A DNA stretch of 64,000 nt from Ferranicluibacter rubi. Its GTDB lineage: Bacteria > Pseudomonadota > Alphaproteobacteria > Rhizobiales > Rhizobiaceae. The stretch covers positions 124,001 through 188,000 of the forward strand of contig NZ_JAANCM010000003.1 of assembly GCF_011603255.1 (NCBI RefSeq). Direction: 5' to 3'. Below are positions 41,707 to 59,837 of this stretch, piece by piece (the first letter of the stretch is position 1; each line of letters opens with the position of its first letter). The notes under the pieces were generated by a model, which had not been told where the DNA came from, searched no databases, and saw only the letters and a program-made list of their open reading frames with translations. Position numbers and translations under genes: made by a program.

Positions 41707-42930
41707 CTAGAAGACCTTGCCCTCCTTCAGATGCGTCGTCGTTTCGTTCAGAAGATAGTCACCGACCACACGCGACTTGTGCAGCAGGGGATTGTGATTG
41801 AGGACAGTCCGGATATTGCGCCAATGGCGGTCGAAATTGTTGTCGCGCGACGTGGCGGAGCCGCCACCGAGCTCGAACATCCGTTCGGCGCTGCGCGGCC
41901 CGAGCTGGCCGAGGATGAGTTGGGTCTGCGCCGTTGCGAGTGCGCTGGAGATGAGCGCCTGTTCGATCTCCGCCTCGTTACGCCGGGCAAAGGCGGCGAC
42001 GGTCCGGTCCAGTGCCGCCGCGGCCGCCGCGACAGCTTGATCGATCGCGAAGGCGTTCGCGGCGATCTCTCCGATCACCTGCTGCACGAAGGGATCCTGC
42101 CTTGCGGTTTCGGCTGCGCTATGGGCCGTGGAACGTGCCTGCCGCCGGACATAGGCAATCCCGTCCGAAAGCACGTTGCGCACGGCACCCGCCGCACTGG
42201 CGGCGAGATGCAGCTGCCGTTGCGTGGAACAGTGCCGCCCGACGAGATCGTCGAGGCTTCGCCGTGTGAACTCGTGCGGAAACACCTCGACATTGTCGAG
42301 AATAATGCCGCCACTGGCCGTCAGGCGCTGGCCCATGCCGTCCCAGTCATCCAGGATCGTGATGCCTTCGCGCTCGACGGGCAGCAGCACCCCGACAGGC
42401 TGGCCCTGTTCGTCCAGAGCGCTGAAAGAGGCGAAATCGGCAAAGGCCGTGCCGGTCGCGTACCACTTCCGGCCGTTCAAGCGGAACGTGTCGCCTTGTC
42501 GCACGATGGTCGTCGTAACTTGCCCCGGCCGTGCCGTCCCCTGTTCCGTATGCGCGCCGCCGAAGAGCTTTCCCGCAAGGATCAGCTCCACCGCGCCGGC
42601 ATCGCGCCGGTCGGGCGCGCTCAGGATCGTGTTCTCGACATAATTGAAATGCGAACGCAAGGCATGCGCGACGTTGGAATCCGCCGCGCCGATGGAAGCG
42701 ATCATCTCGATAAAGTCCACTGCGGAGCCTCCGGGTCCGCCCAGCGCCACGGGAATGCGCAACGTGCCGAGGCCCAGTTCGCGGAACAGGCGAAAAGCTT
42801 CGAAAGGCAGTTCGCGGTCGCGGTCCCGCCGTGCAGCATCCTTTGCGATCTCGGCCGTGAAGGTGGGGATGCGCGCGAGGAGATCCTCGCGTGTCGGGCG
42901 TCTGGTCGTCTGCAATGTGGCGATGCTCAA
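41707..42930 (-). CDS. DszC/SfnB-like flavin-dependent monooxygenase (acyl-CoA dehydrogenase fold)
   Basis: A 407-residue protein of the acyl-CoA dehydrogenase superfamily. It has the monooxygenase-branch pattern GGGSATSRDNNFDRHWRNIR followed by HNPLLHKSRVVGDYLLNE rather than the acyl-CoA dehydrogenase end, and the length is close to DszC (417). Relatives oxygenate sulfur compounds, such as sulfide to sulfone, with reduced flavin supplied by a separate reductase. It is the last gene of a minus-strand run with a Dpp-type importer and lies 9 kb from the DszA/DszB homologues. The exact reaction is an inference; some members act on amines. Confidence 0.82.
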   Translation of the reverse strand: MSIATLQTTRRPTREDLLARIPTFTAEIAKDAARRDRDRELPFEAFRLFRELGLGTLRIPVALGGPGGSAVDFIEMIASIGAADSNVAHALRSHFNYVENTILSAPDRRDAGAVELILAGKLFGGAHTEQGTARPGQVTTTIVRQGDTFRLNGRKWYATGTAFADFASFSALDEQGQPVGVLLPVEREGITILDDWDGMGQRLTASGGIILDNVEVFPHEFTRRSLDDLVGRHCSTQRQLHLAASAAGAVRNVLSDGIAYVRRQARSTAHSAAETARQDPFVQQVIGEIAANAFAIDQAVAAAAAALDRTVAAFARRNEAEIEQALISSALATAQTQLILGQLGPRSAERMFELGGGSATSRDNNFDRHWRNIRTVLNHNPLLHKSRVVGDYLLNETTTHLKEGKVF

Positions 42931-43060: not shown

Positions 43061-44677
43061 TCAGCTCTCGAAGGAGATCTCGGCGCCGTTGCTCCAGAGG
43101 TCCTCGACGCCGATCTTCAGGTTCTTGATCCGCTTGTCATAGACCGTGATCACGGAAGGCGTGACGATGTCGAGCGTCGGCAGGTCCTGCACCACCAGCG
43201 TCTGGAATTCCTTGAAAAGCTGCAGCCGCTTCTTCTCGTCGATTTCGACCGCCGCAGCCTCCAGCAGACGATCGACGTCCGGGTTGGAATATCTCGAACC
43301 ATTGGTGAAGGGCACGCCCGGTTTGAAGTTCTTCGACCAGTAGAGCCGCTGGATGCCAACCGTGGGATCATAGAGATTGCTCATGCCCTCGATGGCGATG
43401 TCGAAATCGCGATCGGTGAAGATCCGCTTCACGAACGTGGCGAAATCCTGACTGCGAAGCTCGACCTTGATGCCGACCTTGGAGAGCGCCTGAGCGAAAT
43501 ACTCCGCCGTCTGCTTGGGAGGACCGGACGGCTGCGTGGGATCGATGAAGAGCTTGAAGCGGAAACCGTCGGCACCCCGCTTGTAGCCGGCTTCGTCCAG
43601 AAGCTTTTCCGCCTTCTCCGGACTGAAGTCGTATTTCGGCAGATCCGGCGTATAGAATTTGACCAGGTCGGGGCTGACCGGGCCGTCGAGCCGCGTTGCA
43701 TAGCCGAGATAGACGGTGTTGACGATGAAGTCCTTGTCGATCGCATGGGCGATCGCGTGACGCACCTTGATGTCGGCGAGGTACTTGTTTTCGAGATTGA
43801 ACTCGGCGCGCGCAATGCTCGGCGAATAGGGCGCGGGCGCGGTATCGACCACAAGGTTCGGATTGGCCTTGAGGCGTTCGATATCTGTCAGCGGCAGGTT
43901 GGCGGTGGAGATCTGCACTTCCCCGGTTTCGATCGCCGCCACCGCCGCAGCGGGGTCGATGATGAAGCGGAAGATGATCTGGTCGAGATAGGGCTTGGGC
44001 GCTCCCCAGTAATTCTCGTTGCGTTCGAAGAGTGCATGGCTGCCACGCACCCACTCCACGAACTTGTAGGGCCCGGTGCCGACGGGCGCGACATTGTGCG
44101 GGTTCTCGGCGATCTTCGTGCCTTCATAAAGATGCTTCGGCACGATCGGCGCTTCGAAGCTGGCAAAGGCGCTGAGAAGATAGGGCGCAGGCTTGGACAG
44201 AAGCAGCTCGACCTCATGGCTGCCCAGCACGTTGGCCTTCTGCACGGAGGCGAAGGTCGCCCGACCGCGCGGGTGGTTTTCCTTCAGCGCCAGGATGGAG
44301 AAGGCGACGTCCTCGGCCGTGAAGTCCCGGCCATCATGCCATTTGACGCCCTTCCTGAGCTTGAACCAGTAGCGAAGGCCATCCTTGCTGACCGTCCATT
44401 CGGTTGCCAGGAGCGGCTGCGGGGCAAAATTGCGGTCATAGGTCAGCAAACTCTCGGTCGCCTTGCCACTGACGTAATAGGCGGCGCCTGCGGAGTGGGC
44501 GATGAGCACGAGAACGGGCGGTTCCGTTCCAATGTTGATCGAAACGGTGCCGCCGCGCGTCGGCTCGGTCTCAGCCCACACGCCTTGCGGAATGGCGGTA
44601 GTGGCCGCCAGCGCGACGGTGGAAAGCAGGAGGGCGCGGCGGGTCGGCGTCGGACCCCAGGTCGTCTTGATCGTCAT
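43061..44677 (-). CDS. peptide/nickel-type ABC substrate-binding protein (family 5, DppA-like)
   Basis: A 538-residue periplasmic protein of solute-binding family 5. The leader (RRALLLSTVALAATTAIPQG, cleavage after VWA) is Tat- or Sec-like. Family patterns include LLTYDRNFAPQPLLATEW and LRKGVKWHDGRDFTAEDVAF. The start ATG 44677 has GGGGAA upstream, better than codons further out. Its transport partners are the dppB-C-D-F-like genes upstream. With two sulfur-oxygenase-type clusters around it, the ligand need not be a peptide. Confidence 0.93.
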   Translation of the reverse strand: MTIKTTWGPTPTRRALLLSTVALAATTAIPQGVWAETEPTRGGTVSINIGTEPPVLVLIAHSAGAAYYVSGKATESLLTYDRNFAPQPLLATEWTVSKDGLRYWFKLRKGVKWHDGRDFTAEDVAFSILALKENHPRGRATFASVQKANVLGSHEVELLLSKPAPYLLSAFASFEAPIVPKHLYEGTKIAENPHNVAPVGTGPYKFVEWVRGSHALFERNENYWGAPKPYLDQIIFRFIIDPAAAVAAIETGEVQISTANLPLTDIERLKANPNLVVDTAPAPYSPSIARAEFNLENKYLADIKVRHAIAHAIDKDFIVNTVYLGYATRLDGPVSPDLVKFYTPDLPKYDFSPEKAEKLLDEAGYKRGADGFRFKLFIDPTQPSGPPKQTAEYFAQALSKVGIKVELRSQDFATFVKRIFTDRDFDIAIEGMSNLYDPTVGIQRLYWSKNFKPGVPFTNGSRYSNPDVDRLLEAAAVEIDEKKRLQLFKEFQTLVVQDLPTLDIVTPSVITVYDKRIKNLKIGVEDLWSNGAEISFES

Positions 44678-44760
44678 GATATTCCCCAAAGCAGCCATCC
44701 GGCAGGGCGGACGGCCCGAATTCGTCAGACACCCGCCTCCGGGCGATGCGTCACACACTA

Positions 44761-44978: not shown

Positions 44979-46040
44979 TCAGGCGACGCGCTGGGGACGA
45001 GCGAGCGGAACGACTGCGCCGGAGGGAGCAGAGGTGCGGGGAACGCGCCCTTCGACCGGATGCCCCGGATCCGTGAAGCCGGGCGTGGAGGGGTGCCCGG
45101 TTGCGACCAGCCGATCGACGAGCGCCTCGTCCTCCGCATCCAGCGTCACATCGAGCGCGCGGAGATAGGCATCCCAATGCGCTTCTGTGCGCGGGCCGGC
45201 GATGGCGGACGTAACGAGCTTGTTGTTCAGCACCCAGGCCAGGGCAAAATCGGCAGGTGAAATGCCCTTCGCCTGCGCATGGGCGGCGATCTGCTTGGCG
45301 ATCGCGATCGATTCCTCGCGGAACTCGACGTCGTGCATGCGCTTGTCGCCGCGACCGGCCCGGGTATCTGCAGCCGGGGCTTCTCCAACGTTGTATTTGC
45401 CGGTGAGCACGCCGCGTGCGAGCGGGCTGTAGGAGACGACACCGAGACCGTATGCGGCCGCGGCCGGAAGCTGCTCGGCTTCGGCCGTGCGATTGACGAT
45501 ATTGTAGAGCGGCTGGCTGGCGACCGGCCGGTCGATGCCCAGCTGGTCGGCGAGATGCGCGACCTCCGCGATGCGCCAGCCGCGGAAATTGGACACGCCG
45601 AAATAGCGCAGCTTGCCGGCCTTGATGAGGTCGGCGATCGCCCGGACCGGCTCTTCCAGCGGGGCGTCGAATACGGCCCGGTGGAAGTAGAGAATGTCGA
45701 TATAGTCGGTGCCGAGGTTGCGCAGCGAGTTCTCGACCGTCTGATAGATCCATTTGCGCGAGTAGCCCCCGCGGTTCGGGCCGCCGTTGCGGGCGTTCAC
45801 GAACTTGGTGGCAACGACCCAGCTGTCGCGGTTCTTGGCGATGCCGCGGCCGACGACCTTTTCCGACTGGCCGTCGTGGTAGACATCGGCCGTATCGATA
45901 AAATTGATGCCCTGTTCATGCGCCTTGTCGATGATGCGGAAGGCGACGTCATCCGGCGTCTGGTTGCCGAACATCATGGCCCCCAGCGTCAGTGGAGAGA
46001 CCTTGAGGGCACTGCGCCCGAGATAGCGGTGGTCGACCAT
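44979..46040 (-). CDS. aldo/keto reductase
   Basis: A 353-residue NADPH-type aldo/keto reductase. Catalytic D49, Y54, K79 and H120 are in place (NFIDTADVYHDGQSE, VATKF, DILYFH). The chosen ATG at 46040 has AAGGAG upstream; the longer open frame would add 74 unrelated residues. It follows the transporter ATPase gene by 19 bp, so it is expressed with the importer. It might reduce an aldehyde released from the imported compound; this is inference. Confidence 0.93.
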   Translation of the reverse strand: MVDHRYLGRSALKVSPLTLGAMMFGNQTPDDVAFRIIDKAHEQGINFIDTADVYHDGQSEKVVGRGIAKNRDSWVVATKFVNARNGGPNRGGYSRKWIYQTVENSLRNLGTDYIDILYFHRAVFDAPLEEPVRAIADLIKAGKLRYFGVSNFRGWRIAEVAHLADQLGIDRPVASQPLYNIVNRTAEAEQLPAAAAYGLGVVSYSPLARGVLTGKYNVGEAPAADTRAGRGDKRMHDVEFREESIAIAKQIAAHAQAKGISPADFALAWVLNNKLVTSAIAGPRTEAHWDAYLRALDVTLDAEDEALVDRLVATGHPSTPGFTDPGHPVEGRVPRTSAPSGAVVPLARPQRVA

Positions 46041-46059: not shown

Positions 46060-47004
46060 TCAGTGGATGTGGCTCGCAAGGTGGCAGGCGACCTGATGGC
46101 CGGGTGCAACGGTGCGGAATTCGGGTTCGTGCGTGCGACAGAGGTCGGTGGCAAGCGGACAGCGGGTGTGAAACCGGCAGCCTGTGGGAATGTCGCTGGG
46201 GCTCGGCAGGTCGCCGCCCAGCGGTGCCGCCTGACGCGGACGTGCGGGATCGGGAACCGCATCCATCAGCGCCCGCGTATAGGGATGCCGCGGATCCGAC
46301 CAGAGCGTCGCATTGTCGGCGCTCTCCACGATCCGGCCGAGATACATCACGAGCACCCGGTCCGCAAAATAGCGCACGACGGAAAGGTCATGGCTGATGA
46401 AGAGATAGGACAGGCCGAATTCCTTCTTCATCTCCACGAGCAGATTAAGGATCTGCGCCTGGATGGAGAGATCGAGCGCCGAGACGGGTTCGTCGCAGAC
46501 GACCAGCTCCGGACTGAGGAGCAGCGCCCGGGCGATGCCGATGCGCTGCCGCTGTCCGCCGGAGAATTCGTGCGGATAGCGGTTGATCGAATCCGCCGGC
46601 AGCCCGACCTTGGCGACGATCCCCGAAATGACCTGCTGCCGTCTGGCGCGGTCGCCCGCCTTGTGCACGATCAGCGGCGCCTCGAGGATCTCGCCGATTG
46701 TCTGGCGCGGATTGAGGGAGGCATAGGGGTCCTGAAAGATCATCTGGATCGACTTGCGCACGCTGCGCAGGCTTTTCTGATCGCGTGTGGTGATATCCTC
46801 GCCCTTGAACGCGATACGGCCCGCCGTCGGCTCGACCAGCCGCAGCACCGTCTTGCCGAGCGTGGACTTGCCGCAGCCGCTTTCGCCGACGAGACCCACG
46901 GTTTCGCCACGCTCCACCACGAGATCGACGCCATCCACGGCTCGCAGCAGGCCGTCGCGGCTCTTGTAATGAGTTTTGAGGTCAGAAACGGAGAGAAGCG
47001 GCAT
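46060..47004 (-). CDS. Dpp/Opp-type ABC ATP-binding protein (DppF-like)
   Basis: A 314-residue ATPase with Walker [10 protein letters not shown], signature [15 protein letters not shown], Walker [13 protein letters not shown] and the oligopeptide-transporter C-terminal motif with cysteines ([15 protein letters not shown]) that may carry an iron-sulfur cluster in this class. Its start lies inside the DppD-like gene (23-bp overlap). It is the second ATPase of the importer. Confidence 0.95.
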
Positions 47005-47983
47005 GGGGCACGGCCTTGCTGGATGTCGTGAAGGGGCAGGCGACCAGCCGATCTTCCGCCGGAACGATCAACGGGGGCACGTGATGGCCGCAGCTGGCCC
47101 GCGCCTGGTTGCATCGCGGCCGGAAGGGACAGCCCGCCTCGCCGACGGCCGAGACGATGGAGCCGGGGATTTCGGTCAGCGGGCCGTCGCGATAGTGGAA
47201 ATCGCGCTTGAGCCGGGGCGAGGCCGAAAGCAGGCCGCGTGTGTAGGGATGCAGCGGATCGTCGAAGAGGTCGCCCGGCAACGCCTGCTCGACCTTTCGC
47301 CCGGCATACATGACGACGACATTGTCGGCCCATTGCGCGACGACGCCGAGATCATGCGTGATGAGGATCACGGCCATCCGCAGCTCGCGCCGAAGCGTGT
47401 CCAGCAGGTCGAGCACCTGCGCTTGAATGGTGACGTCGAGCGCCGTGGTCGGCTCGTCGGCGATCAGCAGCTTCGGTTTGCAGGCAACCGCGATGGCGAT
47501 CATCACGCGCTGACGCATGCCGCCAGACAGCTGGTGCGGATAATCGTCGATCCGCTTGTCCGGCGCGGGGATGCGGACCAGCTCCAGAAGTTCGATCGCG
47601 CGCCTGCGCGCCGCCCTGCCCGACAGCTTTTCATGGACCATCAGCACCTCGGCGATCTGCCGGCCGATGGTCATGACCGGATTGAGGCTCGTCATCGGCT
47701 CCTGAAAGATCATCGCGATCTCGCGCCCGCGCAGATGCCGCATCTCGCGCGCGGCAAGCCCGGTCAGCTCGCGCCCACCGAAGGAAATGCGGCTCTCCGC
47801 CGCGATCTCGGCCGCGCTCGGCAGAAGCTGCATCAACGCCAGGGCCGTCAGCGATTTCCCGGAGCCGGATTCCCCGACGATCGCCAGGGTCTCGCTGTGT
47901 CCGATCTCGAAGGACAGGTTGCGCACGGGTTCGGCGCGGGTAAAGCGGATGGTGAGGTTATCAACCTGAAGCAAAGAGGTCAT
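46982..47983 (-). CDS. Dpp/Opp-type ABC ATP-binding protein (DppD-like)
   Basis: A 333-residue ATPase with Walker A GESGSGKS, signature LSGGMRQRVMIAIAV, Walker B LLIADEPTTALD and the C-terminal CPFRPRCNQARASC motif of the family. It is the first ATPase of the importer and starts 3 bp after the DppC-like stop, so expression is coupled. Confidence 0.95.
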   Translation of the reverse strand: MTSLLQVDNLTIRFTRAEPVRNLSFEIGHSETLAIVGESGSGKSLTALALMQLLPSAAEIAAESRISFGGRELTGLAAREMRHLRGREIAMIFQEPMTSLNPVMTIGRQIAEVLMVHEKLSGRAARRRAIELLELVRIPAPDKRIDDYPHQLSGGMRQRVMIAIAVACKPKLLIADEPTTALDVTIQAQVLDLLDTLRRELRMAVILITHDLGVVAQWADNVVVMYAGRKVEQALPGDLFDDPLHPYTRGLLSASPRLKRDFHYRDGPLTEIPGSIVSAVGEAGCPFRPRCNQARASCGHHVPPLIVPAEDRLVACPFTTSSKAVPHAASLRF

Positions 47984-47986
47984 CGC

Positions 47987-48991
47987 TCAGCGATCCTGCG
48001 AGAAGCGGGGATTGAGGGCATCGTTCAACCCGTCGCCGATGAGATTGAGAGCGAGCACGGTGAAGACGATGGCGAGCCCCGGCAAAGCGGTCAGATACCA
48101 GGCGGTTCGCACGAGCTCGCGGCCGGTGCCGATCATCGAACCCCAGCTGACGACGTTGGGATCGCCCAGGCCCATGAAGGACAGAGCAGACTCCATCAGA
48201 ATGGCTGTCGCCACCATGACCGACGACGTGACGATGATAGGCGGCAGCGCATTCGGCAGGATCTCGTGGAAGATGATGCGGCCATGGCCGTAGCCGAGGC
48301 TGCGGGCCGCCACGACGAAATCCTTCTCTCGGATCGCGCGGAACTCGGCCCGCGTCAGCCGCGCCACCGTCGGCCAGGAAATGATGGCGATCGCCAGCGT
48401 CACGGTCGTTGCAGAGGGCTGGGCGATCGCGACCAAGACGACGAGCAGCACGAAACTCGGCAATGTCTGGAAGATCTCGATCAGCCGCACGAGGACATCA
48501 TCGACCCAGCCGCCGAAGTAGCCTGCCGTTGCTCCGACCAGCACGCCGAATGTCAGGCCGAGCACCGTCGCGAACAGACCGACGAACAGCGAGATGCGCG
48601 CGCCGTGCAGGATGCCGGCCAGCACGTCCCGGCCGAGCCCGTCCGTCCCGAGGGGATAGGCCGGGTCCTGTCCCGGCCAGAGAAACGGACGGGCGACCAT
48701 GGACAGGGGGTCTTCGGGATAGAGGATCGGCGCGGCGAGAGCGACGAGGATGACGAAGGCGAGAAAACCGGCCCCGAACAGAGCGTTCGGGTTCGTCAGG
48801 AACACCGTCAGCGCCCGCCGGCCATTCGTGATTGCGACCGTCGCACTCTGCTGGGAGCGAGCGTCCGGCGCCTTCATGTTGGACCATGCCGGGCCGTCGG
48901 CCGCAGCGCCGGTTGCCGCAGCCTCCTGCGCGGCTGCGGCCTGCCGCTCGGCGGCACGATCGCGTATGTTTACGGCATCGGCGATGGACAT
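47987..48991 (-). CDS. Dpp-type ABC permease (DppC-like)
   Basis: A 334-residue permease with a long polar Ala/Gln-rich N-terminus (about 60 residues) before the first membrane segment (ALFGAGFLAFVILVALAAPI), then five more segments and the DppC motif EILPNALPPIIVTSSVMVA. The ATG at 48991 overlaps the stop of the DppB-like gene (TGATG). The extended N-terminus is longer than in common DppC proteins. Confidence 0.93.
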   Translation of the reverse strand: MSIADAVNIRDRAAERQAAAAQEAAATGAAADGPAWSNMKAPDARSQQSATVAITNGRRALTVFLTNPNALFGAGFLAFVILVALAAPILYPEDPLSMVARPFLWPGQDPAYPLGTDGLGRDVLAGILHGARISLFVGLFATVLGLTFGVLVGATAGYFGGWVDDVLVRLIEIFQTLPSFVLLVVLVAIAQPSATTVTLAIAIISWPTVARLTRAEFRAIREKDFVVAARSLGYGHGRIIFHEILPNALPPIIVTSSVMVATAILMESALSFMGLGDPNVVSWGSMIGTGRELVRTAWYLTALPGLAIVFTVLALNLIGDGLNDALNPRFSQDR

Positions 48992-49977
48992 CAGCGTGCT
49001 CCGATACGAGGGTCGACCCAGGCGTGGAGGAGATCCACGGCGGCGTTGGCGGCGATCACGAGAAGCGAGGAGAGAAGCAGGATGCCGAGCAGGACGGTGA
49101 AGTCGCGCGCCATGACGGCTTCGAAGGCGAGCCGGCCGAGGCCCGGCCAGCTGTAGACGGTTTCCACCACCACCGCGCCGCCCAGCATGCCGCCGACATG
49201 CATGCCGGCCATGGTCGTGATGGGAATCAGCGCGTTGCGCAGGATGTGACGGGACGTCACGCGAAACGGCGTCAGGCCTTTTGCATAGGCGGTGCGAACG
49301 AAATCCTGGTTCTTCACCTCGAGCATCGAAGCCCGCGTCAGCCGCGCGTAGATCGCCACGTAGAACAAGGCGAGCGAGGTTGCCGGCAGCACCATGTAGC
49401 GCGCCGTGTCGAGCAGTGCCGGAAGACCGGTCAATCGAGACCCGATCGTGCCGGCGCCGCCGCTCGGCAGCCAGCCGAGCTTGACCGAGAAGAGGACGAT
49501 CAGCATCAGGCCGATCCAGAAGCTGGGGATGGAATAGAACAGCAGCGAGACGATCGACAGCAGGCGGTCCGGGATACGGCCCGCGAACGCCGCCATCAGC
49601 GCGCCGAGGACGATGCCGAGCAGGATGGCGATCGCCAGCGCCGAGACCATCAGCGTCAGCGTACCGGGAAGCCGCTGGCCGATCAGCTCGGCGACCGGCA
49701 TGCCGTAGCGCGGCGAAAATCCTAAGCTGAAATGCGCCAGATTGTTGAGATAGTCCCCGAGCTGCACGAGAACGGGATTGTCGAGGCCGAAGCGTGAGCG
49801 GAGCGCCGCGACGCTTTCCGTCGTCGCCGACCCCGCCTCGCCGGCCATCACATCGGCCGCATCGCCGGGTGCAAGCTGGAGCAGGAAGAAGTTCAGGACG
49901 ATGATTCCGAGCAGCGTCGGGATCGCGTGCAGCAGCGTGCGTCGCAATGTTCGCACGGTTCTCAGCAGCGCTGCCAT
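48991..49977 (-). CDS. Dpp-type ABC permease (DppB-like)
   Basis: A 328-residue permease with six membrane segments. Its start (LLHAIPTLLGIIVLNFFLLQ, then LAPGDAADVMAG) and the EAA-type loop (TPFRVTSRHILRNALIPIT) are typical DppB. The ATG at 49977 has GGTGGAGG upstream and was preferred to an upstream start at 50058. It is the first gene of the minus-strand importer operon and faces the DszB-like genes across a 314-bp divergent region. Confidence 0.93.
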   Translation of the reverse strand: MAALLRTVRTLRRTLLHAIPTLLGIIVLNFFLLQLAPGDAADVMAGEAGSATTESVAALRSRFGLDNPVLVQLGDYLNNLAHFSLGFSPRYGMPVAELIGQRLPGTLTLMVSALAIAILLGIVLGALMAAFAGRIPDRLLSIVSLLFYSIPSFWIGLMLIVLFSVKLGWLPSGGAGTIGSRLTGLPALLDTARYMVLPATSLALFYVAIYARLTRASMLEVKNQDFVRTAYAKGLTPFRVTSRHILRNALIPITTMAGMHVGGMLGGAVVVETVYSWPGLGRLAFEAVMARDFTVLLGILLLSSLLVIAANAAVDLLHAWVDPRIGAR

Positions 49978-50291
49978 CGTCCTCCACCTTTCAGGTTCGA
50001 GCCTTCCGCTTGTGCGGACCAATCCATCCGGAAGCGAGGGAACGCGCCATCCGTCCAATTAGTAGTTGACCAAATCTGTAGTCTTTGTCAAACGTAGCGA
50101 CGGAAAATTGCCCCCGATATCGGCGGTTTTTAATAATGACGTTTTCAGTATCGGCCGGATATAGGTCTGAAATAGAATATTCGTCTATTTATTGCGCTAT
50201 ACGGGAGATGAATATCTGCGGTTCGGGCGGACGAGAGAAAAGCCATTGCCTGTTTTGAGCAGGCGGAAAACGGACGCCACAGGAGGGCAGC
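49978..50291. promoter_or_regulatory. divergent intergenic region between importer and desulfinase operons
   Basis: This 314-bp gap must hold the promoters of both operons. An AT-richer core at about 50055-50215 includes the imperfect inverted repeat GTTGACCAAA ... TTTGTCAAAC (50064-50092) and, read on the minus strand, a TTGACA box. No regulator gene is present in either operon, so control is likely by a distant regulator, perhaps a sulfate-starvation one; that last point is conjecture. Confidence 0.4.
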
Positions 50292-51332
50292 ATGACCATT
50301 CAGAACGCCATTTCCCAGATCTGGTATACACGCTGCCCTGTCCCGACCCCGGTCGGGCTCGCCTCGCAACTCGGTCTGCTGGAGGAAACCTTCGCCCGGG
50401 AGGGGATCGCGCTTCGCTCCATCATCGACAGCAAGGATCGGGACGTCCGATCCAGCCATTTCACGCATCACCTCGACTATTCCTTCCGCCACGGCGGGAA
50501 CGTACCTCCGATCCGGGCGCGCTCGGAAGGCAATCCGACCCGGCTCGTCGGCATCACCTGGACGGACGAGTTTCAGGCGATCATCACCCTGTCCGGCTCC
50601 GGCATCGAGACGACCCGGGACCTCGTCGGTCGTCGGTTCGGCGTCCCCCGCCGGCCGCCGGGCATCGTCGATTTCATGGCGACGACGGCGCTGAAGGGCC
50701 TCGTCTCGGCGCTCTCGCTGGAGGGACTCGGTCCCCACGAGGTCGATATCGTCGATATCGCCATTCAAGGCTCGGTGCTCGACGATCGCGAAGGCCCGCA
50801 GCTCTACGGCCTTCGCAACCGGCAGGCCTACGGGCCGGAAATCGCCGCCCTGCTGCGCGGCGAGGTCGATGCCATCTATGTCAAGGGAACGCCCGGCATC
50901 AGCGTCGCCAATCTCTTTGCGACCCGCACGGTGACCGAGTTCGGCTTTCACCCCGATCCCAAAATCCGCATCAATTCCGGCTCACCGCGCATCCTGACCG
51001 TCGATGAAAGGCTGGCCGAGGACCGGCCGGATCTCGTCGCCCGCCTCCTTGAGACCCTGCAGCGCGCCGGCGCCTGGGCGGAAAGCCATCCGGACGAGGT
51101 GCGCCGCTTCGTTGCCCGCGAGGTCGGGGCTTCCGAAGAGGTCGTCGCGTCCGCCAACGGGCCGGACCTGCACCGGCATCTCGGCATCGGGCTCGAGCCG
51201 GAGCTGGTCGATGCCATCGGCCACTACAAGGATTTCCTGTACGCATGGGGGTTCCTCGCCGCTGACTTCGATATCGGCGACTGGGTCGATCGCCGGCCCT
51301 GGGCCCTGCTCGAAACGCGTGCCGTCGCCTGA
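50292..51332 (+). CDS. DszB-like sulfinate desulfinase, copy 1
   Basis: A 346-residue protein with the periplasmic-binding-protein fold but no signal peptide. The N-terminus carries YTRCPVPTP (C15) and, 41 residues later, HFTHHLDYSFRHGG (H56 and R66). Rhodococcus DszB has C27, H60 and R70 as catalytic residues in the same motifs, and the His-Arg distance of 10 is identical, followed in both by GG..PP. DszB hydrolyses an aromatic sulfinate to phenol plus sulfite in the cytoplasm. Automatic annotation would probably call this an SsuA-type binding protein. GGAGGG precedes the ATG at 50292. It opens a six-gene operon. Actual substrate unknown. Confidence 0.8.
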   Translation: MTIQNAISQIWYTRCPVPTPVGLASQLGLLEETFAREGIALRSIIDSKDRDVRSSHFTHHLDYSFRHGGNVPPIRARSEGNPTRLVGITWTDEFQAIITLSGSGIETTRDLVGRRFGVPRRPPGIVDFMATTALKGLVSALSLEGLGPHEVDIVDIAIQGSVLDDREGPQLYGLRNRQAYGPEIAALLRGEVDAIYVKGTPGISVANLFATRTVTEFGFHPDPKIRINSGSPRILTVDERLAEDRPDLVARLLETLQRAGAWAESHPDEVRRFVAREVGASEEVVASANGPDLHRHLGIGLEPELVDAIGHYKDFLYAWGFLAADFDIGDWVDRRPWALLETRAVA

Positions 51333-51344
51333 TCGGAGAGCTTC

Positions 51345-52574
51345 ATGACCACGTCCGGAGATTTTGCGGCGGTGATCGCCACGGCCGAAGCGCTCGGACA
51401 GCGCTTTGCACTGACCGCGCGGCATTATGACGAAACCGGCGAATTTCCCTTCGCCAATTTCGACGCGCTGCACGAGGCCGGGCTTCTGGGTCTCGTGACC
51501 GCGGTCGAGCACGGTGGCCTCGGCGGTGGATTGACGGAAGCGCTGGCGGTCATATCCGCCATCGCCCGCGGCGAGCCGTCCACCGCACTGGTCCTCTCGA
51601 TGCACTACAACCAGCACTATTCGCTCCGCGTTTCCGGCCAATGGCCGAAGCATCTGGTCGAGCGGGTAACGAAGGCCAACCGGGACGGTGTCGCCCTCAT
51701 CAACGCCGCGCAGGTGGAGCCCCGCGTCGGGTCTCCCTCGCATGGCGCGCTGCCCGAGACCATTGCGCGGCGCGTGGGTGACGCGTGGCGGATCACCGGA
51801 CACAAGACCTATGCGACCGGCATTCCGCTTCTGCGATGGGTCTCGGTTCTCGCCGTGACCGACGAGCCGGAACCACGCCTCGGCTCCTTCCTGGTGCCGA
51901 CGGATGCCGATGGCATCCGCGTGGAGAAGACTTGGAACGCCACCGGCATGCGCGCGACCAACAGCGACGATCTGATCCTCGATGATGTGGCGATTCCTCT
52001 GGACGATGCGCTGGATCTTGCGCCGGCCGGAGAAGGCCTGAAGCGCGACGAACGCGTGGGCGCTTGGTATTTCACGCTCGTACCGGCCATCTATGACGGT
52101 GCTGCGCGCGGTGCACGCGACTGGTTGATCGACTTTGCAACGAGCAGGGCTCCCGCGAGCCTTGGCGCTCCGCTTTCGACGGTTCCACGCATTCAGGATG
52201 GCATCGGCCAGATCGAGGCCTGGCTGACGGTCAATCGCCGCCTGCTCCGCTCGATCGCGGAGGATTTCGATGCCGGGCGGCCGTTCGGGCCGGATGCGGC
52301 GGCCGTAAAACACACGGTCATCGAAAACGCCGTTGCCGCAACCACGCTGGCACTGGAACTCGGCGGCAATCCCGGCATCAACCGTGACAACCCGCTGGAG
52401 CGACATCACCGCGACGCGCTTTCCGGCAGGGCGCACGCCCCGCAGAACAACCTGATTCGCACCATGCTCGCCAAGGCCGCACTCGGCCGGCATGCCGCTG
52501 CCCCGGCCGTTCCCATCGAGCCGGTGCCGGTCCGCCCCCGGCTCCAGCCCCGTCTCGCCATCGTCAGCCGCTAG
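51345..52574 (+). CDS. acyl-CoA-dehydrogenase-fold flavoprotein, possible DszC-type monooxygenase
   Basis: A 409-residue protein of the acyl-CoA dehydrogenase superfamily (ACAD type 2). It has the N-terminal helical domain (ALGQRFALTARHYDETGEFP), the beta domain (ITGHKTYATGIPLLRWVSVL) and a C-terminal helical domain with RDALSGRAHAPQNNLIRTML. The last part resembles oxygenase-type members rather than true acyl-CoA dehydrogenases. It lies between the two DszB-like genes, 12 bp after the first, so a role as flavin-dependent S- or C-oxygenase is likely by context. It would need reduced flavin from elsewhere. Confidence 0.8.
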   Translation: MTTSGDFAAVIATAEALGQRFALTARHYDETGEFPFANFDALHEAGLLGLVTAVEHGGLGGGLTEALAVISAIARGEPSTALVLSMHYNQHYSLRVSGQWPKHLVERVTKANRDGVALINAAQVEPRVGSPSHGALPETIARRVGDAWRITGHKTYATGIPLLRWVSVLAVTDEPEPRLGSFLVPTDADGIRVEKTWNATGMRATNSDDLILDDVAIPLDDALDLAPAGEGLKRDERVGAWYFTLVPAIYDGAARGARDWLIDFATSRAPASLGAPLSTVPRIQDGIGQIEAWLTVNRRLLRSIAEDFDAGRPFGPDAAAVKHTVIENAVAATTLALELGGNPGINRDNPLERHHRDALSGRAHAPQNNLIRTMLAKAALGRHAAAPAVPIEPVPVRPRLQPRLAIVSR

Positions 52575-52617
52575 CCCCAACCACGAGCCCGCGCCGCTCG
52601 CCAAAAGGAGCCTGCCC

Positions 52618-53652
52618 ATGTCCTCCCTCGCCTCCGTCTGGTACACGCGCTGCCCGGCGCCGACGCCCCTCTCGATCGCCCACCAGCTTGGCTGGATCGA
52701 CCGGTCTTTCCAGGCCGCCGGCGTTGCCGTGCGCTCGATCCGCGACAGCAAGGACCCGGCTGTTCGGCAGAGCCATTTCACCCATGCGCTCGATTACGCG
52801 TTCCGCCAGGGCGGCAATATCCCGCCGATCTCCGCGCGTTCCGGTGGGCGCGAGACCCGTGTCGTCGGCATCACCACGACCGACGAATTCCAGGCGATCA
52901 TCGCCCTCCCCGCGTCAGGCATCAGAACCGGCGCCGACCTCAAGGGCCGCCGTATCGGCGTGCCGCGCAAGTTGGATCAGACGATCATCGATTTCCAGCG
53001 CGCGACCGCGTTGAAGGGCATCGTCTCCGCCTTGTCGCTGGAAGGAATCGGTCACGGGGATGTCGAACTCGTCCACCTCGACAGTGCGGAGCCCACCCTG
53101 ATCGAGCGGGGCAACGACGCGTTTCTCGGCTTAAAACGCCGCTATCCCTATGGCGACGAGCTTTTGGCGCTCGCGCGCGGCGATATCGACGCCTTCTTCG
53201 TCAAAGGGGCAGAAGGCCTCGTGCTTGCCAACCAAATCAGCGCCATCGTCGTCTCCGAATTCGGCTTCCACACGGACGCCAAAATCCGCATCAACAACGG
53301 CACGCCGCGTCCGCTGACGGTCGACAAGCGTTTCCTTGACGACCATTTCGACCTGGTCACGGATCTCGTCCAGACGGTTCACGGCGTGGCCGCTTGGGCG
53401 CAAAGCAACCCGGATCAGGCCGTTCGTTTCATCGCCAACGAGATCGGCGTCGGCGAAGATGCGATCCGGGCGGCCAACGGCCCCGACGTGCACAAGCACC
53501 TGACGCTCTCGCTCGATGACGAGCAGGTCGACGCATTCGGCCATTTCAAGGATTTTCTGCTCGAATGGGGCTTCATCCCGGCAGATTTCGATGTGATCGA
53601 ATGGATCGATAGCCGGCCTCTCGAAGCGGCACACCGCCGCCTTGCTGCATGA
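52618..53652 (+). CDS. DszB-like sulfinate desulfinase, copy 2
   Basis: A 344-residue paralogue of the gene at 50292, similar over its whole length, with no signal peptide. The triad is kept: C12 in YTRCPAPTP, H53 and R63 in HFTHALDYAFRQGG, with the same spacing as in copy 1. It shares LKGIVSALSLEGIG and GDIDAFFVKGAEG with small changes that suggest a different ligand pocket. AAAAGGAG precedes the ATG at 52618. Its stop overlaps the next start (ATGA). Keeping two intact copies in one operon suggests two sulfinate substrates or a heteromer; both are inference. Confidence 0.8.
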   Translation: MSSLASVWYTRCPAPTPLSIAHQLGWIDRSFQAAGVAVRSIRDSKDPAVRQSHFTHALDYAFRQGGNIPPISARSGGRETRVVGITTTDEFQAIIALPASGIRTGADLKGRRIGVPRKLDQTIIDFQRATALKGIVSALSLEGIGHGDVELVHLDSAEPTLIERGNDAFLGLKRRYPYGDELLALARGDIDAFFVKGAEGLVLANQISAIVVSEFGFHTDAKIRINNGTPRPLTVDKRFLDDHFDLVTDLVQTVHGVAAWAQSNPDQAVRFIANEIGVGEDAIRAANGPDVHKHLTLSLDDEQVDAFGHFKDFLLEWGFIPADFDVIEWIDSRPLEAAHRRLAA

Positions 53653-54530
53653 GCCCGATTCTCGTCACCGGTGCGACCGGCAGGCTGGGTCAGTTGATCG
53701 TCGAGCGGCTTCTCGCGCAGCAGCGGCCCGTCCGTGTCCTGACGCGCCGGCCGGATACGGCACGCAAGCTGTTCGGGGCCGCGGTCGAGGTGGCGAGCGG
53801 CGCGTTTGCCGACCGGAGATCGCTTGAGACCGCCCTTCGCGGCATTGCCACCGTGCTTCTTCTTTCACCGATCGGTGAACGGCTGGTCTCAGACCAGACT
53901 GCGGTTGTGGATGCCGCGCTGGCAGCCGGCGTCCGGCGCATCGTCAAGATTTCCGGATCGGACTGGACGATCGAACCTCCCGGACGATCGATCTCCGGTG
54001 ATGCTCACGCTGCCGTCGAGCGGCATCTCGGCCGCCTGCCGCTGGAGCATGTGTCCCTGAGGCCGAACGCGTGGATGCAGGTGTCGCTTGCCAACACCCT
54101 TCGGCAAGTGCTTGCCGGCGGTCCGGTAACGGCGGTGAATCTCGACGCCGGCGTCGGCTACATCGATGCGCGCGATATCGCCGACGTCGCGGTGCACCTC
54201 CTTCTGGCCGATCGGATAGCCGGGGGGCCGTTGAACCTGACGGGACCGGCCGCCAAGACACCTCGGCAGATCGCGGATCTCCTCGCCACCGCGCTCGGGC
54301 GCCAAGTGGAAGCGGTGGAACACCAGCCTCCACCCCTGCTCCCGGGTGCCGGTTTCGAACAGCGCGCCGTGGCGCAATTCGCAACGCTGATTGCCGCCGG
54401 CCATGCGGCGGTGGCGACGGATGTGGTCCGGTCGCTTCTTGCCCGACCGCCGCGCAGCGTCGAAGCCTTCCTCTCGGACCAGCTAAGCGCAGAAGCGGTC
54501 CTCGCCCCGACCGCCGATATCGCGCCATGA
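53649..54530 (+). CDS. NmrA-like NAD(P)-binding protein
   Basis: A 293-residue atypical short-chain dehydrogenase of the NmrA/QOR2 type. The nucleotide-binding motif is VTGATGRLGQ at residues 5-14, and the fold continues with VRVLTRRPDTARKLF and VRRIVKISGSDW. Some relatives are quinone or azo reductases, others only sense NAD(P). It is translationally coupled to the second DszB-like gene. It could supply reducing power or act on the phenol or enol product; the sequence does not say which. Confidence 0.88.
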   Translation: MSPILVTGATGRLGQLIVERLLAQQRPVRVLTRRPDTARKLFGAAVEVASGAFADRRSLETALRGIATVLLLSPIGERLVSDQTAVVDAALAAGVRRIVKISGSDWTIEPPGRSISGDAHAAVERHLGRLPLEHVSLRPNAWMQVSLANTLRQVLAGGPVTAVNLDAGVGYIDARDIADVAVHLLLADRIAGGPLNLTGPAAKTPRQIADLLATALGRQVEAVEHQPPPLLPGAGFEQRAVAQFATLIAAGHAAVATDVVRSLLARPPRSVEAFLSDQLSAEAVLAPTADIAP

Positions 54531-54565
54531 GCCTCAAACACAGCAACCCTTGAGGAACCAAGGCT

Positions 54566-55216
54566 ATGTACCTCGTCATCTTCGGTGCCTCCGGCAACAT
54601 CGGCAGCCATCTTCGCAAGGAGGCCTTGGCGCGCGGGCACCACGTCACGGCCGTCACGCACGTATCCGACATCGAACCGGCGGAGCGGCTGACGGTCGTC
54701 AAGGCCGATATCGCGGACGCCGCTGCGGTGGCGAAGATTGTGGCCGGTCATGACGCCGTGATCAGCGCCTACAGCCCCGGCCTGCGCCGCATCTCCGCGG
54801 AAGAGGCCGCCGAACGGATCGGTGAGGCGCATGAGGCGCTTTTTGAGGGCGTCAAACGAGCCGGCGTGCGCCGCCTCATCCTCGTCGGTGGCGTCGGCAG
54901 CCTGGAGGCGAGCCCCGGCGTCGACGTCGTGGACAGCGAGTTCTATCCCGCAGACCACAAGGCGCACACGCTGCGCAACCGTGACATCCTGAAAAGCCTG
55001 AAGCGCGGCGATCACGATCTCGACTGGACCTATGTGTCGCCGCCGCTCGCCATTCAGGCGGGCGAACGCACCGGCACGTTCCGGCTGGGGGAAGACCGTC
55101 TGCTGCGCGACGGCAACGGCGACAGCCGCATCTCGGAAGCCGATTTCGCCATCGCCATTCTCGACGAACTCGAAAACGGCCAGTTCATCCGCCGGCGCTT
55201 CACGGCCGCTTACTAG
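54566..55216 (+). CDS. NAD(P)-dependent oxidoreductase (YwnB-like SDR)
   Basis: A 216-residue small atypical SDR. The dinucleotide motif FGASGNIGSHL stands at residues 5-15, and LILVGGVGSLEASPGVDV and WTYVSPPLAI are typical of the NAD(P)H-binding/flavin-reductase-like family (BLVRB-like). Members with that fold can reduce flavin, so it is the best local candidate for the reductase that the flavin monooxygenases need, but this is only a suggestion. It is 35 bp after the NmrA-like gene. Confidence 0.87.
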   Translation: MYLVIFGASGNIGSHLRKEALARGHHVTAVTHVSDIEPAERLTVVKADIADAAAVAKIVAGHDAVISAYSPGLRRISAEEAAERIGEAHEALFEGVKRAGVRRLILVGGVGSLEASPGVDVVDSEFYPADHKAHTLRNRDILKSLKRGDHDLDWTYVSPPLAIQAGERTGTFRLGEDRLLRDGNGDSRISEADFAIAILDELENGQFIRRRFTAAY

Positions 55217-55264
55217 GCCCGGCCGCCTGCCGACCGGCCCGTCGTTCCCAAGGATACAAGACTC

Positions 55265-56617
55265 ATGACCATCACGCAGCGCAAGCTCAACCTCAATGTC
55301 GGCATCAATACGACCGGCTACCTCGGCCATGCCTGGCCGTACCGCACCGGTACCCGGCACGATATCAACGATCCCGCATATTACCGGCGCCTGACCGAGC
55401 TTGCCCACAAGGGCCTGTTCGATGCTGTGTTCTTCTCCGACCATCCGGCCCTGATGACGGATCCCGAGGGGCGGCCCTTCCATACGATCGATCCGTTGAT
55501 CCTCTGTACGGCGCTTGCCGCCCAGGTGCCGGATATCGGTTTCGTGGCCACCATGTCCTCGACCTATAATTCGCCCTACAATCTTGCCCGGCGCACCCAG
55601 TCGACCGACATCGTTTCGGGTGGCCGGCTGATCATCAACATCGTCTCCTCGTTCAACCCCAACGTTGCCGCCAATTTCGGCTCCGAGCCTCTGCCGCAGC
55701 GCCACGAACGCTATGCCAAGGCCTCCGAGTTTCTCGACGTCGCCAAGAAGCTCTGGGCGAGCTGGGATCCCGCCCGGGAGGGCGACGTGCCGGAAGGCCG
55801 GTTCTGGGATGCGACGAGCGCCCACACGATCGATCATGACGGCACCTATTTCACCGTCAAAGGGCCGCTCAACGTGCCGGTCGGGCCGCAAGGCCACCCC
55901 GTGATCGCTCAGGCGGGTGCTTCGGAAGGGGGTATCGACCTTGCGGCACGGCATGGCGAGATCATCTACTGCAACATCCTGTCCCGTCCGGCTGGCCGCG
56001 CCTTCGGCGAGAAGGTCAGGGACAGGGCAAGGGCGTTCGGACGCGATCCCGCCAGCATCCGCATCGTTCCCGGTCTCGTGGCGATCGTCGGCGAGACACG
56101 TGCCGAAGCGCTCCGCAAGCACGAGCTTTTCAGCGGTGCCGGCTCGGAGGACGGGCTGATCGCCCGCTTTATCCGAGAGAACGGCATCGATCCCGCCGGC
56201 TTCGATCCGGATGCCATTCTCGATGCAGAGCGGTTCATTCCGGATCCCAACCGCCTGCTGGCGGTCGGCATGGGGCTGGGCCTGCTCGATCTCCTGACCC
56301 ACGAAAAGCTGACGGCGCGACAGGTCGTCCGACGCTCGGAAGGCCACCACCGACTGGTGATCGGCACGCCGGACGAGGTGGCCGATCAGATCATCGATCT
56401 CTGGGCCGACGGTACCGTCGACGGTTACACGCTGCAGCCGCCCCGGGCGCCGGATGATATCGAGGAGTTCGTCGCGAAGGTCGTGCCTATCCTGCAGGAT
56501 CGAGGTGTCTATCGAACGCGGTATGAGGAATCGACGATCCGCGAGCGGTACGGCCTGCCGTTTCCAGAGGGCACAACACGTCCCGCCGATCGTCCGGCGC
56601 TATCCCGGTTGGCTTGA
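55265..56617 (+). CDS. DszA/NtaA/SnaA-family FMN-dependent monooxygenase
   Basis: A 450-residue bacterial-luciferase-like monooxygenase, nearly the length of DszA (453). Shared features are GLFDAVFFSDHPAL, TMSSTYNSPYNLARRTQSTD, LIINIVSSFNPNVAANFGSE, the segment KKLWASWDP and the end VVPILQDRGVYRTRYEESTI. DszA cleaves a sulfone C-S bond using FMNH2 and O2 to give a sulfinate, which is the substrate of DszB. It closes the operon that starts with the DszB-like gene. Family assignment is firm; substrate is open, as NtaA-type members act on aminopolycarboxylates. Confidence 0.9.
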   Translation: MTITQRKLNLNVGINTTGYLGHAWPYRTGTRHDINDPAYYRRLTELAHKGLFDAVFFSDHPALMTDPEGRPFHTIDPLILCTALAAQVPDIGFVATMSSTYNSPYNLARRTQSTDIVSGGRLIINIVSSFNPNVAANFGSEPLPQRHERYAKASEFLDVAKKLWASWDPAREGDVPEGRFWDATSAHTIDHDGTYFTVKGPLNVPVGPQGHPVIAQAGASEGGIDLAARHGEIIYCNILSRPAGRAFGEKVRDRARAFGRDPASIRIVPGLVAIVGETRAEALRKHELFSGAGSEDGLIARFIRENGIDPAGFDPDAILDAERFIPDPNRLLAVGMGLGLLDLLTHEKLTARQVVRRSEGHHRLVIGTPDEVADQIIDLWADGTVDGYTLQPPRAPDDIEEFVAKVVPILQDRGVYRTRYEESTIRERYGLPFPEGTTRPADRPALSRLA

Positions 56618-56763
56618 GGCTCTGCGCTTCCGTGTCTGAGGCACAACCTGTCGGCCTATCCGGCGTCGAGGCGTCCCCGTGCGCGATCTTCAAGGGTGCT
56701 TTACGTCAGTCCAACGTGTCGCTTTGGCGCCTGCATGGCCCGCATCGCCACTGAACGAGCCGT

Positions 56764-56769
56764 TTGACA
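56764..56769 (+). promoter_or_regulatory. candidate -35 box of the MntA/HepT unit
   Basis: TTGACA lies 43 bp before the mntA start with an AT-richer stretch downstream; the best -10 candidate (TAGATT, 56790-56795) is 20 bp away, longer than ideal. Low certainty. Confidence 0.25.
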
Positions 56770-56811
56770 AAGAGAGTGGCTGATTTCAGTAGATTGCTGT
56801 AAGCTTTCGCC

Positions 56812-57108
56812 ATGAACAGAGCGGACGCCATTGCGAAGCTTCAGCGACATGCAGATGCCGTGAAAGGCATGGGGGCAACCGCTTTGTATCTTTTCGGCTC
56901 TACGCTACGCAACGAGGCGCACATATCAAGCGATCTCGACGTGTTTATCGATTACGATTCGACTAAACGTTTCTCTCTGCTTGATCTGGTCGGCATCAAA
57001 CAGTTCCTAGAGGAAGAGCTTGCGATGGAGGTGGATGTCACCACGCGCAACAGTCTTCACCCCATGCTGCGGACAGATATCGAACGCTCGGCCGTCAAGG
57101 TTTTCTGA
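56812..57108 (+). CDS. mntA: MntA-type minimal nucleotidyltransferase antitoxin
   Basis: A 98-residue minimal nucleotidyltransferase with the exact motif GS-x10-DxD (G29, S30, D41, D43: LYLFGSTLRNEAHISSDLDV). In the MntA/HepT system this enzyme neutralises the HepT ribonuclease by transferring AMP to a tyrosine. It overlaps the hepT gene by one base (TGATG). It is not related in function to the desulfurisation genes upstream. Confidence 0.88.
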   Translation: MNRADAIAKLQRHADAVKGMGATALYLFGSTLRNEAHISSDLDVFIDYDSTKRFSLLDLVGIKQFLEEELAMEVDVTTRNSLHPMLRTDIERSAVKVF

Positions 57109-57461
57109 TGGGCAGAAGCAGGATGGGGCCAGTTCTGGCGGAAATGCTCGAGGCTATTGAAGGCATCGAACGTCACACCGTTCGCAAATCTCTCATCGAG
57201 TTTGAACGCGACTGGCTGCTGCGTCTTGGCGTTCAGCGGGCGTTGGAAATCATATCGGAAGCCTCACGTCACATTCCCGATGACGTATTGACTGCCGAGC
57301 CGGAGGTGCCATGGAAAAACATCCGCGGCATCGGCAACATCCTACGTCACGAGTATCACAAAATCGCCGACGATGTGATTTGGGTGGTTGTGACTGAGAA
57401 TATCCTTCCATTGAAGGCGGCTGTCAAAGCTATTCAACAGCGGATTGGCGAAGAAGGTTAG
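57108..57461 (+). CDS. hepT: HepT-like (DUF86) toxin, variant active-site motif
   Basis: A 117-residue all-helical HEPN protein of the HepT/DUF86 family. The canonical ribonuclease motif is R-x4-6-H with a tyrosine two residues after the histidine. Here the motif region is GIGNILRHEY: H81 and Y83 (the AMPylation target in characterised pairs) are kept, but a glycine stands where the usual arginine (RN) is found. Arginines at 73 and 80 flank it. This subgroup may use another arginine or be weakly active. It is coupled to mntA. Confidence 0.85.
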   Translation: MGRSRMGPVLAEMLEAIEGIERHTVRKSLIEFERDWLLRLGVQRALEIISEASRHIPDDVLTAEPEVPWKNIRGIGNILRHEYHKIADDVIWVVVTENILPLKAAVKAIQQRIGEEG

Positions 57462-57649
57462 TTACCTCGGGCGATATGTCGCCTCGAATTTTTCACCATT
57501 CTTTAGCCAGATCCCCTTTCAATACCGCCACTCGTGATTGCCCGCGCATGTCTCGGAAGAATGCATACGGCAATGACTCCGGGCATCGCCCATGCCGCCG
57601 CCCCAATCACCGGTATGTTCCGGACGTTATCGGACAACACAAGGGCCGC

Positions 57650-58712: not shown

Positions 58713-58742
58713 CAAGCGCGCTTGCGCTGGAAGGCAATGATC

Positions 58743-59354: not shown

Positions 59355-59376
59355 CGAACCGCCGCAGATCATATGC

Positions 59377-59734: not shown

Positions 59735-59837
59735 GCGGATCCTGGCGCATTGTTCTGCCGGCCCTATAATTCCGGCGATGGGTCGCATTTCCGATAACGG
59801 CCTACGACGCGTTCAGTGACAAGCGCAAGCGCGCTTT

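Follow-up and report, generated by a model that had tools for sequence, protein, structure and literature searches.

A divergent gene cluster encoding two DszB-like proteins

The DNA under study is a stretch of 64,000 nucleotides from Ferranicluibacter rubi (contig NZ_JAANCM010000003.1, positions 124,001 to 188,000 of the forward strand), termed the window in the following. Between its positions 50292 and 56617 six open reading frames (ORFs) run in the same direction, tightly packed with intergenic spacings of 12, 43, -4, 35 and 48 bp. They encode two homologues of the desulfinase DszB (DszB1 and DszB2), a flavoprotein of the acyl-CoA dehydrogenase (ACAD) fold, ACAD1, two Rossmann-type proteins and an FMN-dependent monooxygenase (LLM). 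A preliminary description, made from the sequence alone, had taken these genes for an operon of organosulfur desulfurisation resembling the dsz-encoded 4S pathway. The six-gene unit is real and is located where it had been placed, and Pfam confirmed the ACAD as well as the two Rossmann-type proteins, described as reductases, which belong to the NmrA and NAD_binding_10 families. As an account of the whole system the description was incomplete. The unit belongs to a larger system with two divergent halves, one of which (41707-50058, minus strand) had been missed, as had a palindrome between the halves. The minus-strand half encodes two peptide-type ATP-binding cassette (ABC) permeases (PERM1, PERM2), two ATPases, an aldo/keto reductase (AKR), an SBP_bac_5 solute-binding protein (SBP5) and a second ACAD-fold protein, ACAD2. 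It starts about 230 to 315 bp from the DszB1 start codon, depending on which start is chosen for PERM1. A scan of positions 43000-60000 with Rfam yielded nothing at the gathering threshold.

Table 1. Genes and other features of the divergent cluster (positions in the window).
Feature	Position	Strand	Basis or remark
ACAD2, SfnB/DszC/MsuC-type flavin monooxygenase homologue	41707..42930	-	family models, PDB search
SBP5, SBP_bac_5 solute-binding protein, signal-peptide-like N-terminus	43061..44758	-	start codon not fixed
AKR, aldo/keto reductase	44979..46040	-	start picked by comparison with locus L022
ATP2, ABC transporter ATP-binding protein	46060..47004	-	
ATP1, ABC transporter ATP-binding protein	46982..47983	-	
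PERM2, peptide-type ABC permease with OppC_N	47990..49003	-	start codon not fixed
PERM1, peptide-type ABC permease	48991..50058	-	TTG start given; internal ATG at 49977 likelier
Palindromic operator-like element TTGACNAA-N10-TTNGTCAA, between the divergent halves	50066..50091		motif searches
DszB1, DszB-type desulfinase homologue, 346 aa, no signal peptide	50292..51332	+	PDB search, profile, alignment, AlphaFold model
ACAD1, ACAD-fold flavoprotein, probable monooxygenase	51345..52574	+	lacks YEGT (by eye); C-terminus R..RD......H.P like DszC
DszB2, second DszB-type protein, clade apart from DszB1	52618..53652	+	PDB search, alignment, tree; ATG at 52618
NmrA-family NAD(P)-binding protein	53649..54530	+	Pfam
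8-codon ORF overlapping the NmrA stop	54527..54553	+	site at which the group A FAD monooxygenase gene begins in relatives
NAD(P)H-binding (NAD_binding_10) protein	54566..55216	+	Pfam
LLM, NtaA/DmoA-family FMN-dependent monooxygenase, proposed DszA role	55265..56617	+	family model, PDB search

DszB1 and DszB2 carry the active-site residues of DszB

In a phmmer search of 177,635 distinct PDB sequences DszB was the best match of DszB1 (E 2e-15) and of DszB2 (E 3.4e-10); DszB2 had in addition one weak match of the SsuA type (E 0.0031). A profile made from ten DszB-like proteins matched only the two DszB sequences in the PDB at E ≤ 0.001 (2.5e-23). By these searches the comparison of DszB with SsuA envisaged in the preliminary description came out on the side of DszB. 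Residues C15, H56 and R66 of DszB1 align with C27, H60 and R70 of DszB; their equivalents in DszB2, counted from the ATG at 52618, are C12, H53 and R63. Both proteins therefore possess the Cys-His-Arg triad which had been claimed for them, and the RxGG of the DszB active-site set is retained in both. According to PMC6100217, C27 of DszB is critical and RxGG is conserved in homologues; in the mechanism favoured there C27 protonates the sulfinate-bearing carbon with participation of an H60-S25 dyad. The position of S25 is occupied by Thr in the proteins described here, i.e. the hydroxyl is retained. W155, named as a pocket residue of DszB (PMC6100217), falls within an insertion without counterpart in the DszB1/DszB2 profile (indexed by eye). 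Because the active-site residues are retained and the stretch with W155 is missing, it is likely that the chemistry of DszB is kept and that the substrate is different. This agrees with the earlier view that dibenzothiophene is an unlikely substrate.

Conservation was assessed in 127 related ORFs (128 matched, one short match was dropped; at least two loci are present twice, L011/L084 and L012/L111). Counted for Cys, His and Arg, all three residues are retained in 123 of the 127, both window proteins included, and G69, which corresponds to G73 of DszB, is invariant. The four exceptions are solute-binding proteins with hydrophobic N-termini and Ala/Leu/Thr (L016, L017) and two DszB-like proteins in which Ser replaces Cys (L031, L041). 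In the latter, encoded on the minus strands at 7240-8967 of L031 and 1852-2952 of L041, the His is replaced as well and intact copies are present in the same loci; possibly they are non-catalytic relatives. As judged by hydropathy only, a hydrophobic N-terminal stretch is absent from DszB1 and DszB2 and present in SBP5, in L016 and L017 and in a solute-binding protein of L028. Accordingly placed by sequence, DszB1 and DszB2 are predicted to be cytoplasmic proteins without signal peptide.

The AlphaFold model of DszB1 (pLDDT 86.5, pTM 0.86) retrieved DszB first in a Foldseek search (E 7e-21), followed by TauA (5.5e-16), SsuA (2.9e-15) and, lower, Thi5 (4.6e-12). In a tree calculated from 93 of the 127 rows after removal of near-duplicates, to which a long-branch warning applies, DszB1 and DszB2 are located in separate clades, hence neither is a recent duplicate. 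DszB2 groups with a Paracoccus protein (support 100/96). The annotated DszB of pMyong1 is separated from both by a very long branch, and its placement is unsure.

Two ACAD-fold proteins and an NtaA/DmoA-family monooxygenase

The ACAD-fold protein of the six-gene unit had been put forward as the homologue of DszC. The fold assignment stood; the assignment as DszC-type had to be corrected. Compared with the DszC model ACAD1 reached 37.3 bits, the cut-off being 850, and its nearest solved relatives are 5z8t (219.1 bits) and 5gj7 (218.4 bits). By its sequence ACAD1 appears to be a remote relative of DszC only and a poor stand-in for it. The better candidate for a DszC/SfnB/MsuC-type enzyme would be ACAD2, which lies outside of the unit. 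It matched a 'probable monooxygenase' (8cda, 9e-42), TdsC (3.7e-33), MsuC (6.9e-30) and DszC (1.3e-21) in the PDB, and the SfnB model at 1e-80. Both ACADs lack the base motif YEGT (alignment, by eye). A C-terminal pattern, R..R[DN]......H.P, is common to ACAD1, ACAD2 and the DszC of pMyong1. Its His probably corresponds to His391 of DszC, for which a role in flavin hydroperoxide formation is described (PMC11134501). The LLM passes the cut-off of the NtaA/DmoA family TIGR03860 with 385.3 vs 279.7 bits. Taken together, the 4S-like gene content proposed earlier, i.e. DszB-type proteins, an LLM and an ACAD-fold flavoprotein side by side, was borne out.

A palindrome between the divergent halves

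The region between the halves contains the 26 nt palindrome TTGACNAA-N10-TTNGTCAA (50066-50091). It is conserved in 14 aligned intergenic regions, most of the remainder of which is not, and its strong conservation extends across many genera. At least one match was present in 83 of 93 loci; ten had none, among them L060 owing to a contig end. In 82 of the 93 loci the palindrome is situated at most 400 bp upstream of PERM1. Five matches were scored elsewhere, one of which (L082) in fact also lies directly upstream of PERM1, although inverted. The number obtained with a Markov control was 4.7 per set vs 87 observed. The palindrome remains beside PERM1 where the neighbour on the other side is SBP5 rather than DszB1. 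Within its own genome the exact palindrome occurs once; allowing up to 2 mismatches, five forward matches including the exact one were found vs four for the reversed control. A global regulon element was thus rejected, since the matches beyond the exact one are at control level. Probably the palindrome is the operator of a local regulator. In some relatives an Rrf2, LysR or helix-turn-helix (HTH) gene adjoins the cluster.

Linkage and distribution

A collection of species genomes was scanned with two peptide patterns. Of the 158 relatives obtained, the best 80 entered the analysis, which together with the window makes 81 loci; the counts therefore favour close kin. Matches were the best local ones by identity, at least 50-55% unless stated and without a length limit, and contig ends truncate several of the loci. 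All four transporter genes were present in 76 of the 81 loci and divergent from DszB1 in 75. SBP5 was found in all 81 (identity at least 43%), PERM1 in 80, the AKR in 76 and ACAD1 in 73; ACAD2 was detected in 69 and both ACADs together in 63. Some LLM was encoded in 79 loci at a looser 40-45% identity. Its type differs between loci (NtaA/DmoA-like, SfnG-like or YtnJ-like), a variation suggestive of a fixed core that serves different substrates. For the LLM2 gene found in Rhizobium loci the nearest family is SfnG, with a score below the equivalog cut-off.

At least two DszB-like ORFs were present in 16 of the 81 loci. In 14 of these a group A FAD monooxygenase gene is located between the NmrA and the NAD(P)H-binding genes. 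It was found neither at the window locus nor in L047, nor elsewhere in the genome of F. rubi, and so it seems to be dispensable. In L037 this gene is a fragment only; in L036 no match to the NAD(P)H-binding gene was obtained. Among 104 sources searched, a flavin reductase was present in 18, Rrf2 in 20 and LysR in 20, mostly in Agrobacterium and Devosia kin. Sulfur-linked neighbours in relatives comprise rhodanese in a few, and MsuE and arylsulfatase in some. ChaC-like genes occur in four loci, one being a gene for a ChaC-like gamma-glutamyl cyclotransferase in L056 (15198-16016, minus strand); this gene family is a hint at glutathione-like substrates.

The cluster is patchily distributed and scattered through the Rhizobiaceae and their kin. 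At the level of the order 8 of 297 genomes matched at E ≤ 1e-10, the own one included. As the matches of L016 and L017 are solute-binding proteins without the triad, 6 of the 297 genomes have a DszB-type protein. At the level of the family 8 of 297 genomes matched at E ≤ 1e-80, again including the own one; none of the four other genomes of the genus listed in this set did. Of 94 matching plasmid records 50 were from Sinorhizobium and 22 from Rhizobium. A scan of viral contigs revealed no relative.

The pSymA locus of Sinorhizobium meliloti

On pSymA of S. meliloti 2011 (L021, an unannotated record) 5 and 8 seed matches were found in a divergent layout. Divergent operons of five and eight genes, sma2085-2077 and sma2087-2101, are reported for pSymA (PMC5940162), and in view of this agreement they are probably the cluster described here. 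Matching counts are no proof because in Ensifer canadensis (L022) the eighth gene lies past an HTH gene on the opposite strand. No function was found stated for the sma operons. Compared with them the window is without the FAD monooxygenase and a second NmrA match. Reporter fusions of sma2085 and sma2087 exist (PMC5940162), i.e. the reading given below is directly testable in S. meliloti. For the use of organic sulfur, ssu, tau and arylsulfatase clusters are named in a survey of Sinorhizobium genomes, its table being without a DszB-type cluster (PMC4053727). Our literature search, outside of which most subscription literature lies, found no paper that assigns a desulfinase function to this rhizobial locus.

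A proposed route of import and desulfurisation

We read the cluster, with a probability of roughly 0.7, as a regulated system which imports and desulfurises an organosulfur compound in a manner like the 4S pathway. The reading builds on gene content, homology, active-site conservation, absence of signal peptides, linkage and the palindrome as observed above. From these we infer the reactions, their order, the kind of substrate and any control by sulfur. The peptide-type ABC importer, as its linkage suggests, would bring the sulfur compound into the cell. There ACAD2, perhaps also ACAD1, may oxidise the sulfur towards a sulfone, as expected from the family. The LLM would cleave the C-S bond and leave a sulfinate, from which DszB1 and/or DszB2 would release sulfite by the Cys/His/Arg chemistry of DszB, as sequence and active site suggest. 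Sulfite enters assimilation. Reduced FMN would be supplied by flavin reductases encoded elsewhere, and the aldo/keto reductase, the NmrA and the NAD(P)H-binding proteins may process the carbon skeleton.

A number of findings weigh against this reading, and some of them favour other explanations. Possibly the flavoenzymes belong to a catabolic route which cleaves a C-N or C-S bond in a non-sulfonyl compound such as an amine similar to ethylenediaminetetraacetate (EDTA) or nitrilotriacetate, or an S-alkylated cysteine or glutathione conjugate of the kind processed in CmoJ/YtnJ pathways, with the DszB-like proteins acting on a side product. The nearest solved relative of the LLM is EDTA monooxygenase (EmoA, 3.8e-93) followed by YtnJ/MoxC, with DszA at 1.2e-56. 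The LLM, called DszA-like in the preliminary description, thus belongs by sequence to the family which contains DszA, yet it appears closer to EDTA monooxygenase. ACAD2 remains below the cut-offs of SfnB (TIGR04022, 271.6 vs 430.9 bits) and DszC (102.7 vs 850). The importer is of the peptide type, and amidase, M20 and ChaC genes are present in a few related loci. However, ACAD2 groups with the sulfur monooxygenases DszC, MsuC and SfnB, two clades of the desulfinase type are maintained and sulfur genes recur around related loci. On balance, we regard a non-sulfonyl route as improbable.

The second alternative, which we consider quite improbable, concerns DszB1 and DszB2 themselves. They could be cytoplasmic binding or sensor proteins of the SsuA/NMT1 fold for a sulfur or thiamine-precursor ligand and carry out no chemistry. 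Indeed, the fold is that of SsuA/TauA and, lower, Thi5. DszB1 and DszB share only about 24% identity, and the TM-scores overlap (DszB 0.71-0.73; the SsuA-type chains 2x26 0.66-0.77 and 3uif 0.71-0.74); therefore the fold alone cannot decide. The NMT1 model matches both proteins weakly, and so does that of the SsuA family, with 74.7 and 79.0 bits against a cut-off of 163.5; as the annotated DszB of pMyong1 scores likewise (65.4 bits), the latter decides nothing. The triad columns rank just 18th to 30th of 346 in conservation: they are well kept, yet not singled out, because the set of 127 ORFs is dominated by close kin. In DszB itself the H60Q mutation costs only about 17-fold, and R70 is assumed to be structural (PMC6100217). 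On the other hand, the triad is missing from both clear solute-binding proteins in the set, DszB1 and DszB2 have no signal peptide and the profile matches DszB alone. Ordinary SsuA solute-binding proteins were rejected on account of the absent signal peptide and the retained triad.

That the cluster is a true dszABC pathway for dibenzothiophene is hardly credible: all three protein types are present, yet the gene order differs from dszABC as already noted in the preliminary description, neither ACAD reaches the cut-off for DszC or SfnB, DszA is not the nearest relative of the LLM, W155 of the pocket for 2-(2'-hydroxyphenyl)benzenesulfinate (HBPS) is missing and the annotated DszB of pMyong1 branches far apart, its placement being unsure; membership was rejected on gene order, cut-offs and pocket.

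Two further points weigh against import and desulfurisation as proposed. The cluster contains no flavin reductase gene, as had been stated before; the own genome has 6 PF01613 and 7 PF03358 matches which say little because each family was also found in 13 of 14 control genomes. Furthermore, the word 'sulfur' was not found in the main text of the paper on the S. meliloti operons (PMC5940162), which leaves the inferred control by sulfur unsupported.

Comparison with known systems and possible substrates

With the dszABC operon of Rhodococcus IGTS8, represented here by pMyong1 (L113), the cluster has in common the DszB active-site set, an LLM of the NtaA/DmoA family and an ACAD-fold monooxygenase. 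Unlike dszABC it comprises two desulfinase-type genes, two ACADs, of which ACAD2 is in the divergent half and ACAD1 in the six-gene unit, an importer, an aldo/keto reductase and additional Rossmann-type proteins. Its layout is divergent, the gene order is not dszA-dszB-dszC as in L113, and DszB1 is without the W155 stretch. Of the named families, SfnB, TdsC and MsuC are nearest to ACAD2, which recalls the oxidation of sulfones and sulfinates by SfnB/SfnG and MsuC in Pseudomonas; ACAD2 and the LLM2 of Rhizobium are both below the equivalog cut-offs. To our knowledge, sfn and msu systems have no DszB-type desulfinase. The nearest functional precedent, the bdsABC operon of Gordonia terrae C-6, likened here by its description only, shares a desulfinase, an FMNH2-dependent monooxygenase, an LLM and co-induced ABC transporter genes, and differs in gene order and in that the adjoining transporter genes are of the sulfonate type (PMC3868597). 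It has low homology to dsz and converts benzothiophene to o-hydroxystyrene; genes of a peptide ABC transporter were up-regulated together with bdsABC (PMC3868597). What sets the present cluster apart is that 4S-like genes occur together with an importer of their own, a pair of desulfinase-type genes and an operator-like element that is conserved.

By analogy, the candidate substrates include benzothiophene-like compounds, as desulfurisation of benzothiophene along a 4S-like route, via the sulfone to o-hydroxystyrene, is reported for Sinorhizobium sp. KT55 (PMC3868597). KT55 seems to be without dibenzothiophene desulfurisation (PMC4327732), and the genetic basis of benzothiophene desulfurisation was called still to be elucidated in 2013 (PMC3868597). 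Tentatively, and we consider this rather doubtful, the cluster could be a dedicated route by which aromatic or vinylic sulfur compounds from plants or soil are taken up and desulfurised, located on rhizobial megaplasmids including pSymA, in which two desulfinases serve two different sulfinates and which is the genetic basis of benzothiophene desulfurisation in KT55. Against a simple link, dibenzothiophene desulfurisation by a Chelatococcus was attributed to peptides that match DszABC known from bacteria, those of DszB and DszC including matches to actinobacterial ones (PMC4839641). Another Chelatococcus, C. asaccharovorans (L042), carries the present cluster.

The papers cited deal with DszB-type desulfinases in the context of bacteria that desulfurise fuel. 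The homologues described here, annotated as 'ABC transporter substrate-binding protein', occur in many rhizobia including the model symbiont S. meliloti, in a conserved cluster that has an importer. If true, the proposed desulfurisation would provide a natural role for 4S-type chemistry and a candidate locus for benzothiophene desulfurisation in Sinorhizobium. It would also correct a recurrent misannotation and add new desulfinases for the slow biodesulfurisation step.

Neighbouring genes

On one side of the cluster a single ORF (38799-40358) fuses an ABC permease domain with an ABC ATPase domain; it follows an SBP_bac_3 gene (37905-38744) and precedes a DAO-type oxidoreductase (40228-41580). 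On the other side a short fragment of a peptide-type ABC ATPase (59981-60472), a 53% match to the cluster ATPase, is followed by an Amidohydro_3 protein (60497-61696); together they may be what is left of a second transport system of the peptide type. Two small genes at 56813-57460 resemble, by reading only, a nucleotidyltransferase/HEPN pair.

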